Assembly: GCA_947034885.2 (NCBI GenBank)
Contig: OX344750.2
Location: forward strand, 16,362,053-16,426,052
Source: Thuidium tamariscinum
Lineage: Eukaryota > Streptophyta > Bryopsida > Hypnales > Thuidiaceae
Reading direction: 5' to 3'
DNA length: 64,000 bases
Positions 7,801 to 10,532 of the stretch are shown here, in pieces. Every line of letters begins with the position of its first letter. The stretch's first letter is position 1. The position numbers and the translations under genes were made by a program. The notes beneath the pieces are model-generated. The model was not told where the DNA came from. It ran no database searches and worked only from the letters and a program-made list of their open reading frames with translations.

Positions 7801-7802
7801 CT

Positions 7803-7938
7803 GCAGTACATCGCAGAAGCCAGGAAGAAGAGCAGAGCAGAGCAGAGCATGCAGTAGTATCGCAGAAGCCAGGGGGAAGAGCAGAGCAGAGCATGCAGTC
7901 TATCGCAGAAGCCAGGAGGAAGAGCAGAGCAGAGTACT
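7803..7938. repeat. tandem repeat of about 45 bp, three copies, 3' of the SR gene
   Basis: The core CGCAGAAGCCAGG followed by GGAAGAGCAGAGCAGAG occurs three times in direct order, twice followed by CATGCAGT. It lies about 0.5 kb beyond the SR gene stop codon. Whether it is in the 3' UTR is unknown. Confidence 0.75.
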
Positions 7939-8426: not shown

Positions 8427-10532
8427 TCAGGGGCTTCTGCTCCTGCTCCGACGGCGGTCCCGGGCAGCTATCGGGCTTCTGCAAGTCCATTCAATTATAC
8501 ATTGAATTAGCCACCAAAGTTCAATTCCATGCACGAATACAAATGACAACTTCCAAAATACGTACATAAAACTGACACAAAGACTCCAACATACCCATTC
8601 GGAACTGGCGATCCACGTCGGTCACGTCTTGGTGGTGGTGATCGACTGGGGCTTCTGCCGCGGCGAACCACAGGCGAGATACTTCTCTGGCGCGGGGAAG
8701 ATTTGCTCCTTCCCCGAGGGCTTCCCCGAGGAGGTGGGCTGGACAGCCAAAAAAACACAAAAAGACAAGCTATCAATTGATATGCCCAGCTTACATGAAC
8801 GCAAATGTACACCCGACTAAGAAAAAGGGAATGTTATCAGAAACATGATCTGTTGTTCCGAAACAAGTAATAATGTGTAAAAAGATGATTGAACCATCAA
8901 TTTGCTCATATTTTACTGGGAAAGACCGCAAATGCAACGTACCTGCGAGCACCATAGCCATAGCTTGGGCTGCGACGATATCGTGGGCTGGCAGAGGAAT
9001 GGATCCCATTTTTCACCGTCAGATACCAAGGCCGAGGAGGCCGTGCGATAAACGAAACAGAACCAAAAATAAAATATTCATGAAATCCAGAGGAACCCCG
9101 AAAAGGACCGTGATTTCGTGGATTATAAAAAAGACCTACGCACTTGAAGGATATACTTCGGAGGGTCTCCATTACGAGAGTCACTGGAGAGCATTGCAAG
9201 CGGAGATCAACAGTACAAAAGAAAGAGGAGAAAAAATGTTCTTCCATGACGCACTCAAAAGGTGTAAAAAAACACAAGGCTCAATTTGGGCCTTCTTGGT
9301 TCTCCAGGGTGGGTTGGAATGAGAATGAAAGTGACGGTACCTTCGGGCACCGTAGCTTGGGCTGCGACGGTATCTTGGGCTTGCACGAGGGCTCTTACCA
9401 CGGCCGCCAGTGCCCAATCCTCCGGCCCCAATACGAAGGCGGCATTCTCGTGCAAAATGACCAGGCTCTCCACATTCGTAGCATTTCATGTCATCCCCTC
9501 CACGACCACGAGGTCCACCGCCTCCGCCTGAGCTGCGTGAGAGCTCGACTCGCCAACCATTCTTACCTGCATGCCAAAACCCACATAAAAGGCATATTTC
9601 CACTTCAATCGCTAAAAGGATTCTGGAAGGTGTGTAAGATGAGCCTTAATGTTCTGTGACCCCTTACAATAACTACAGAACCACTCACTACGGACTTACC
9701 ATCCAAAACCCGAATTGCATCTCGAGCATCTCGTATGTCATCGAACTCCACAAAAGCAAACCCCGCCGGTTTCCGGGCGACCCAGACACTGTGTCACCAG
9801 ATACATACAACAATGGCATCAAAACCATGATGAGGCACATACCATTCAAGTCACGTATGGCATCATCTGCATCTCTTCGATCTTCAAATTCGATAAAAGC
9901 AAAGCCCGGCGGTTTGCGTCCCACCCATACACTGAAATTCATAGGTCAGACAGCAGAACGACTTTCAGCAGCATACCTCCAAAATGAAAAAAGGTACAGC
10001 CCTCCCTGCATGTGCTTCCCTAACTGCCAGTATAACACATCCGAAATCCCACTCAACTGAAAACTCCATTACGACTAAAATATATTAAAATAATCACGCA
10101 CATCCTCCTTGATAGAGGCGTTCGTTCACAGGATCCAATCCACAACGCCTTTCATTCAGATTCACATCTACATTCAGACAACTTCACCACGCATCGACAT
10201 CGCTCTGAACCTCCGAAATCTAAAAACTCCATAATCATCCAAAAAACGAAACCATAAACCGAAGAAGGAAAATCAAAATCACCAAAGAATCTCCAAAATA
10301 CGAACTTCAATCACCACGGAAAAATAGATGGAACATTCAGTAAAGTAGAAAAGGGACCGAAACCCTCATCCCACAAACCCTCATCCCCGTTTCGAAACGA
10401 TGATGACTCTTTCCGGAGGCGCAGACAGAAGTGGGAAACGCACCTGCGAAGCACGCCGTAGACACGGAACTCATCCTCAAGCTCGCGCTCGGTGGCGCGC
10501 GGGTCCAAGTTGCCGACGTAAACACGCGACAT
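8427..10532 (-). CDS. RSZ-type SR splicing factor (one RRM, one CCHC zinc knuckle, RS domain)
   Basis: Nuclear SR protein of the plant RSZ21/22 class (relatives of SRSF7/9G8), expected to act in exon recognition. Exons (minus strand): 10444-10532, then either 9843-9931 or 9700-9788, then 9341-9566, 8943-8987, 8595-8738 and 8427-8478. All have GT-AG borders and phases fit. With one copy of exon 2 the CDS is 645 nt, 214 aa. The RRM starts [20 protein letters not shown] (RNP2 VYVGNL) and exon 2 supplies RNP1 ([10 protein letters not shown]). Exon 3 gives NGWRVELSR, a Gly-rich hinge and the knuckle [25 protein letters not shown] and RS repeats follow, ending RSRSRSP and TGA. The start is the conserved MSR; an ATG four codons upstream is in frame but not conserved. 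Exon 4 (45 nt, phase 2-2) repeats the 3' end of exon 3. Confidence 0.93.
9700..9788 (-). other. SR gene alternative exon 2b (RRM core)
   Basis: 89 nt with the same phases as exon 2a. The acceptor AG is read from 9789-9790 and the donor is GTAAGT. It encodes [15 protein letters not shown] then [15 protein letters not shown]. This is closer than 2a to plant RSZ22 (ARDAIR, LDG). Using both exons would shift the frame, and only 54 nt separate them. Confidence 0.85.
9843..9931 (-). other. SR gene alternative exon 2a (RRM core)
   Basis: 89 nt, entering in phase 2 and leaving in phase 1. The acceptor AG is read from 9932-9933 and the donor GTATGT follows 9843. It encodes [15 protein letters not shown] then [15 protein letters not shown], covering RNP1 and the second RRM helix. 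It is interchangeable in length and phase with exon 2b, which lies 54 nt downstream. Confidence 0.85.

Follow-up and report, generated by a model that had tools for sequence, protein, structure and literature searches.

The RSZ gene and its two versions of exon 2

The window, by which is meant the entire 64,000-nucleotide stretch of Thuidium tamariscinum DNA that was analysed, carries an RSZ-type SR protein gene on its minus strand at 10532–8427. Each mRNA would contain six exons, and the gene has seven when both versions of exon 2 are counted. The exons, with the introns that surround exon 2, are arranged as follows.

10532–10444, minus strand: exon 1, coding part, 89 nt; starts with ATG and encodes β1, α1 and the start of β2 of the RRM; placed by frame and a CAG/GTGCGT donor
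10443–9932, minus strand: intron 1, 512 nt; ends in ATTTCAG before exon 2A
9931–9843, minus strand: exon 2A, 89 nt, 31 residues with the split border codons; A-type segment, flanked by AG and GTATGT
9842–9789, minus strand: gap between exons 2A and 2B, 54 nt, GT to AG; candidate branch points at about 9831 (CTCAT) and about 9819 (TTGAT)
9788–9700, minus strand: exon 2B, 89 nt, 31 residues with the split border codons; B-type segment, flanked by ACACAG and GTAAGT
9699–9567, minus strand: intron between exons 2B and 3, 133 nt
9566–9341, minus strand: exon 3, 226 nt; rest of the RRM, Gly-rich linker, CCHC zinc knuckle and start of the RS region
8987–8943, minus strand: exon 4, 45 nt; RS cassette that keeps the frame and is similar to the tail of exon 3
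8738–8595, minus strand: exon 5, 144 nt; RS region
8478–8427, minus strand: exon 6, coding part, 52 nt; ends in TGA

Exons 4, 5 and 6 were added to an earlier model and complete an open reading frame of 214 aa, with either 2A or 2B and with a common TGA. An earlier note on this DNA had described the tandem 89-nt exons, 54 nt apart, in matching phase and with intact GT–AG sites, and all of these coordinates hold; the exon ends behind the five splice junctions it named were likewise exact on recheck.

Both predicted isoforms matched the Pfam RRM_1 family over residues 4–61 (59.3 bits with 2A and 58.3 bits with 2B, cut-off 20.7) and zf-CCHC over residues 87–102 (32.3 bits in both, cut-off 20.8). 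The protein has a single N-terminal RRM and one CCHC knuckle following a Gly-rich stretch, as expected of an RSZ protein, and shares the arrangement of one RRM, Gly-rich linker, CCHC knuckle and RS tail with plant RSZ21/22/23 and animal SRSF3/SRSF7. By the definition in passages of PMC7105729, the RS region of an SR protein is C-terminal, spans 50 aa or more and has an RS/SR dipeptide content of 20% or higher. The RS tail of 108 aa contains 14 RS/SR dipeptides, and its best stretch of at least 50 aa scores 18.9% when dipeptides are counted per position or 30% when the residues lying in dipeptides are counted, the outcome depending on the method of counting.

A protein-level search for RSZ sequence across the 363-Mb genome (19 contigs), which scores best candidates only, gave 84 matches at E values up to 10. 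Four are the exons of this gene, each at about 1e-7 or better; the other 80, with E values of at least 0.0064 and identities of 29–63%, include a stray copy of exon 2A (described below) and revealed no second RSZ gene. Rfam gave no match in the window at the gathering score, and the plasmid collection gave no match.

Frame and sequence constraint of the exon pair

Exons 2A and 2B are identical at 63 of 89 bases and, counting the split border codons, at 23 of 31 residues. A repeat finder returned the same pair independently (98 nt, 72% identity, 143 nt apart), and the two have the configuration of a mutually exclusive pair, being neighbouring homologous exons of equal length and identical phase with compatible GT–AG sites. 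A third copy of the exon was sought by a motif scan of 10532–8427 in three frames, which found 2A and 2B only. When both exons are included the frame stays open for 115 codons and then stops within exon 3, and when both are skipped it stops after 30 codons, whereas either exon alone gives the 214-aa protein; the earlier prediction that both or neither would break the frame was thus borne out.

Comparison of the two exons gave a dN of 0.16 and a saturated dS of 2.3 (dN/dS about 0.07), with 16 of the 26 differences falling at codon position 3. Neutral drift was simulated by holding one exon while the other drifted to 26 differences, in one run starting from A and in a second starting from B. None of the 20,000 simulated exons in either run kept 23 of 31 residues; on average 14.9 and 15.2 were kept, and 47–49% of the exons stayed open in frame. 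The residue identity, the low dN/dS and both simulations agree in upholding the description of the pair as two phase-matched alternative exons, both under constraint.

The sequences flanking the two exons are near shuffle level, with 27 of 300 shuffles scoring as well upstream and 211 of 300 downstream. Because the flanks are hardly more alike than shuffled sequence, the duplication must be old, and a recent duplication was ruled out by this result together with the saturated dS.

A stray copy of exon 2A (L003, G000:C2:16348645-16348708) lies about 23 kb from 2A and 22.7 kb from the 9341–10532 stretch. It shares 85% DNA identity with 2A over 65 nt and carries part of the upstream intron; it contains gaps and has lost both splice sites, and one of its frames, which has no stop, remains 52% identical over residues 31–62. 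A DNA search found no other piece of 9341–10532 at this locus. The relic is a picture of an unused copy, though it is closer to 2A in DNA than 2B is. The reading of an exon of the pair as a pseudo-exon was ruled out by the simulations and by the contrast with this decayed copy.

From the sequence evidence, 2A and 2B very probably form a working mutually exclusive pair, which stems from an old tandem duplication and belongs to the single RSZ (SRSF7/9G8-like) gene of this moss, and we assign this reading a probability of about 0.83.

A-type and B-type segments in other plants

RSZ protein records were collected by database searches, comprising the best 120 of 1,101 matches, the best 120 of 289, and a further 107 matches. 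Clusters formed at 90% identity would merge the A and B isoforms of one gene and, given this and the sampling, an absence of B records says little. The closest organism-named protein among the matches listed was Physcomitrium patens RSZ23 'transcript I', at 90% identity; P0002, which comes from JGI/lgn sources with no organism given, was closer at 93%.

The sequences of 13 bryophyte records, three of them without an organism name, were compared, and the annotated proteins carry either an A-type or a B-type exon 2 segment. Eight are A-type: two from Physcomitrium, those of Marchantia paleacea and Calypogeia fissa, three diverged Sphagnum records and P0002. The five B-type records are two from Riccia sorocarpa, one of which ends within the segment, one from Sphagnum troendelagicum, and P0011 and P0065. 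The unnamed P0002, P0011 and P0065 were placed with the mosses by similarity, the latter two being Sphagnum-like in sequence. Both organism-named Physcomitrium records are A-type, and P0002, the nearest relative and a single sequence, has the A form only. Outside the bryophytes, P0009, P0010 and P0037 of the lycophyte Diphasiastrum are B-like and P0014 is not. Exon 2B of the window is identical at 26 of 31 residues to the B-type segments of Riccia, Sphagnum and Diphasiastrum (P0009), compared with 22–24 of 31 for the A-type segments compared.

The clearest contrast is between the liverworts Marchantia (A) and Riccia (B), which differ at six of the 31 exon 2 residues and at none of the 74 elsewhere in the RRM and knuckle (Fisher p = 4.6e-4). 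In the RS region the two share 93% identity, against 65% between Riccia and Sphagnum, and the order is reversed in the exon 2 segment, where Riccia and Sphagnum agree at 30 of 31 residues and Marchantia and Riccia at 25. Because RS regions change faster, an identity of 93% indicates that the Marchantia and Riccia records represent the same gene, and it disfavours the explanation that the A and B proteins of liverworts are paralogues. Proteins that match elsewhere but have exchanged a single exon would be expected if both exons exist in each of the genes and only one of them was retained in each gene model. The figure of 0/74 is weak evidence by itself, as the window protein and Marchantia also have no differences at these 74 positions. 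Similarly, the B segments of the window and Riccia differ at 5 of 31 residues with none of 74 elsewhere (p = 0.0018), so that confinement of changes to exon 2 is alone no proof of a swap. Exon 2 is the most changeable part of this RRM.

In the JGI records P0011 and P0065 the B segment is joined to exon 3 sequence, which then runs into other sequence, and both records look like partly spliced transcripts. The Sphagnum records P0026, P0059 and P0074 belong to a diverged RSZ paralogue with an A-like exon 2, found beside the conserved, B-annotated gene P0007; in Sphagnum the two exon versions may possibly have been split between two genes. The Calypogeia fissa record P0005 has an extra Ala at the exon 2/3 border (LNAGKNG against LNGKNG), which would fit a tandem NAGNAG acceptor. 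Among bacterial and archaeal genomes, 596 stretches matched the search pattern and none encodes a relative, and the viral collection gave one locus with 50% identity over 28 residues, which is not usable as a relative.

Age of the pair

Trees were built from the 31 exon 2 residues using a set of 22 rows and a set of 14 from which 8 rows had been dropped; P0003, P0059, P0065, P0074 and P0200 were compared but lie outside alignment A1 and the trees. In the 22-row tree the window B segment groups with those of Riccia and Sphagnum (support 81/66), and in the 14-row tree the B rows group together with Diphasiastrum (89/96). No fork passes the star of the tree tool in either set. With 14 rows, the B rows without Diphasiastrum do not form a clade in the best tree and are not rejected as one (p = 0.373). 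The trees on this segment are only suggestive of antiquity.

The comparisons, made at the level of protein records, suggest that the A/B pair predates the split between mosses and liverworts. That the pair was already present in the moss–liverwort ancestor, perhaps even in that of land plants, and has been kept as a switch of which gene models show one exon each, is the account we moderately favour. The older date is considered because Diphasiastrum too has a B-type segment.

It is also conceivable, if rather doubtful, that the pair is real but was born within this moss lineage, and that 2B resembles the segments of Riccia, Sphagnum and Diphasiastrum through convergence or through ancestral residues in common. 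A moss-only clade survives an approximately unbiased (AU) test with 22 rows (p = 0.169) but is rejected with 14 (p = 0.0015), and this favourable value comes from the set that was picked after the first tree. Two of the B residues, D46 and D59, are also present in Chara and may be ancestral. A moss-lineage origin would nevertheless leave the Marchantia/Riccia swap unexplained, with its RS identity of 93%, its 25 of 31 shared exon 2 residues and the agreement of Riccia with Sphagnum at 30 of 31.

Probable exclusion of joint inclusion

Two branch-point-like motifs, predicted from sequence, lie in the 54-nt gap, 12 and 24 nt away from the donor of 2A. According to passages of PMC6161759, a test of 30 candidate Arabidopsis introns of 31–59 bp verified none smaller than two of 59 bp. 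Animal work has prompted the proposal (excerpts of PMC7969005) that joint assembly on a donor and a branch point has a steric limit of about 50 nt. The suggestion that the gap is too short to be spliced out is therefore probably right, being below the Arabidopsis minimum and having its branch-point candidates so near the donor. Joint inclusion should be rare on the same grounds. Under such a mechanism, U1 at the 2A donor and U2 at a branch point within the gap would be unable to bind simultaneously, the pre-mRNA would be spliced with either 2A or 2B between exons 1 and 3, and stray products containing both exons or neither, with their early stops, would be removed by decay. This steric block combined with frameshift and decay appears the likeliest route of exclusion for 2A and 2B. 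Control of exon choice by RNA pairing was also considered: a single fold of 894 nt showed nothing unusual (z = −1.78; 2 of 20 shuffles reached a fold as good) and one short palindrome was detected, in intron 1, neither of which gave any hint of it.

Exon 2B could instead be a decoy or poison exon, whose inclusion alongside 2A would serve solely to disrupt the frame and thereby lower RSZ levels, with no use in protein. SR genes commonly self-regulate through unproductive splicing, and the stop produced in exon 3 by joint inclusion would suit such a role. Passages of PMC5457400 likewise assume that most new moss SR isoforms are unproductive. A decoy would, however, have no need of the protein constraint seen in 2B (23 of 31 residues, dN/dS about 0.07), the 54-nt gap disfavours the joint inclusion on which it depends, 2B alone restores the full reading frame, and full-length proteins with a B-type segment are annotated in Riccia and Sphagnum, so that we regard this explanation as improbable. 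Least credible of all is that 2B is a recent or decaying duplicate, rarely or never used, as its longer end branch in the exon 2 tree (0.27, compared with 0.057 for 2A) might suggest, given that 2B is free of stops and indels and retains both splice sites despite saturated dS, that the near absence of flank similarity speaks against recent origin, and that real decay is seen in the 2A relic, though one frame of that copy still reads at 52% over residues 31–62.

Differences between the two isoforms

For a working mutually exclusive pair, the products would differ at eight positions of the RRM: G34A, P38A, I43V, E46D, R48I, D52R, D57V and N59D, written from A to B. These were placed on a single model, that of the A-type relative P0002. 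The P0002 model has a mean pLDDT of 64.5, with RRM blocks at 87–95, and shows strands at residues 2–9, 28–34, 39–45 and 65–69 and the second helix at 48–58. On this model most of the eight differences fall in helix 2 and its surroundings, or in loops.

The solved RRMs of SRSF3/SRSF7 align with that of the window, and by analogy with SRSF3 we take Tyr5, Trp32, Phe40 and Phe42 to be the aromatic residues of the RNA face. All four are identical in the 2A and 2B isoforms. Helix 2 of an RRM normally faces away from RNA. The earlier note had proposed two SR proteins with different RNA-contact surfaces, and this part of its interpretation is not supported, as the expected RNA-face aromatics are unchanged and the changes cluster in and around helix 2. 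Given the shared aromatics and the position of the changes, a difference in protein partners or in the finer points of RNA preference is more likely between the isoforms than one in basic RNA recognition.

Relation to known exon pairs

The either-or exon architecture itself is already known, from vertebrate U2AF1 and, in plants, from FLM/MAF1. Exons 3 and Ab of U2AF1 (U2AF35a/b), as described in passages of PMC5224494, are 67 nt each, encode seven residue changes and lead to stops and decay when both or neither are used. The likeness to the RSZ pair extends to tandem duplicated exons of equal length not divisible by three, which with few changes encode part of an RRM-like domain in a core splicing factor. 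The same source reports that the U2AF1 pair has been maintained through vertebrate evolution and that features upstream of exon Ab, of branch-point and stem-loop kind, take part in its control. Effects on 3′ splice sites that are specific to one isoform or the other are reported in the available text of PMC6821156. U2AF1, in contrast to the gene of the window, encodes animal U2AF35, which is not an SR protein and has a UHM rather than a canonical RRM, and the two pairs would have arisen independently.

A block arising from a branch point too close to the upstream donor, at less than about 50 nt, has been proposed for OGDH exons 4a/4b (excerpts of PMC7969005), and α-tropomyosin, an example of the same class, appears in the reference list of that paper. 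Passages of PMC5740500 count 57 potential cases of a short donor-to-branch-point block among 629 human clusters. The RSZ pair differs from OGDH and α-tropomyosin in that its entire intervening intron is 54 nt, its branch points are predicted and it belongs to a plant. Arabidopsis FLM/MAF1 offers a plant regulatory gene with either-or exons, for which translatome reads support both isoforms, but it encodes a MADS transcription factor and its second exon was judged recent within the MAF1–3 group (both from passages of PMC3266260). The RSZ exon, by comparison, clearly duplicates a conserved segment of the RRM, and it is probably much older than the second exon of FLM/MAF1.

A term search of the available main text of three papers on Physcomitrium splicing (PMC7105729, PMC5457400 and PMC4054894) returned no 'mutually exclusive', and the available text of the first two, which treat its SR genes, mentions no alternative RRM exon for RSZ. 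According to passages of PMC7105729, the Physcomitrium RSZ gene models Pp3c11_26740 and Pp3c11_26750 share one position. The term 'exclusive' is absent from the text available of a survey of SR genes in 27 eukaryotes (PMC3173450). In the available portions of four further plant SR papers (PMC11798799, PMC8583155, PMC2375911 and PMC10837019), 'mutually exclusive' appears only in lists of splicing types and, in one of them, also in genome-wide event counts. Across the open-licence literature, searched by title and the start of the abstract, with subscription papers outside the scope, no either-or exons in the RRMs of plant RSZ or other SR proteins were found. Alternative splicing in plant SR genes is usually treated as an unproductive process, and in flowering plants RSZ genes are noted for little or none of it, with none found for poplar RSZ genes (passages of PMC8583155) and no significant alternative splicing for some pepper RSZ members (passages of PMC11798799).

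A conserved switch in the RRM would give two SR proteins per gene in plants with a single RSZ gene, and many splicing decisions further down could then depend on the ratio of 2A to 2B. Were both exons present in Physcomitrium or Marchantia, removing each separately would make the question of functional isoforms directly testable. If the pair is ancient, it would be an independent plant counterpart of the vertebrate U2AF1 switch and among the oldest either-or pairs of plants, and would warn that standard annotation, with one exon per model, can conceal such pairs.

Further features of the locus

Exon 4 repeats the RS-coding tail of exon 3, near 9341–9381. A counterpart is present in P0001 (Physcomitrium) and absent from P0003 (Physcomitrium) and P0002. 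Because the records of relatives occur both with and without it, exon 4 is probably an alternative cassette, which would have arisen by a second small duplication within the same RSZ gene. Near the start of the window, a 507-aa open frame lies at 148–1671 on the minus strand. About three copies of a tandem unit of 43–44 nt occupy 7802–7934, downstream of the RSZ stop codon and possibly within its 3′ UTR.
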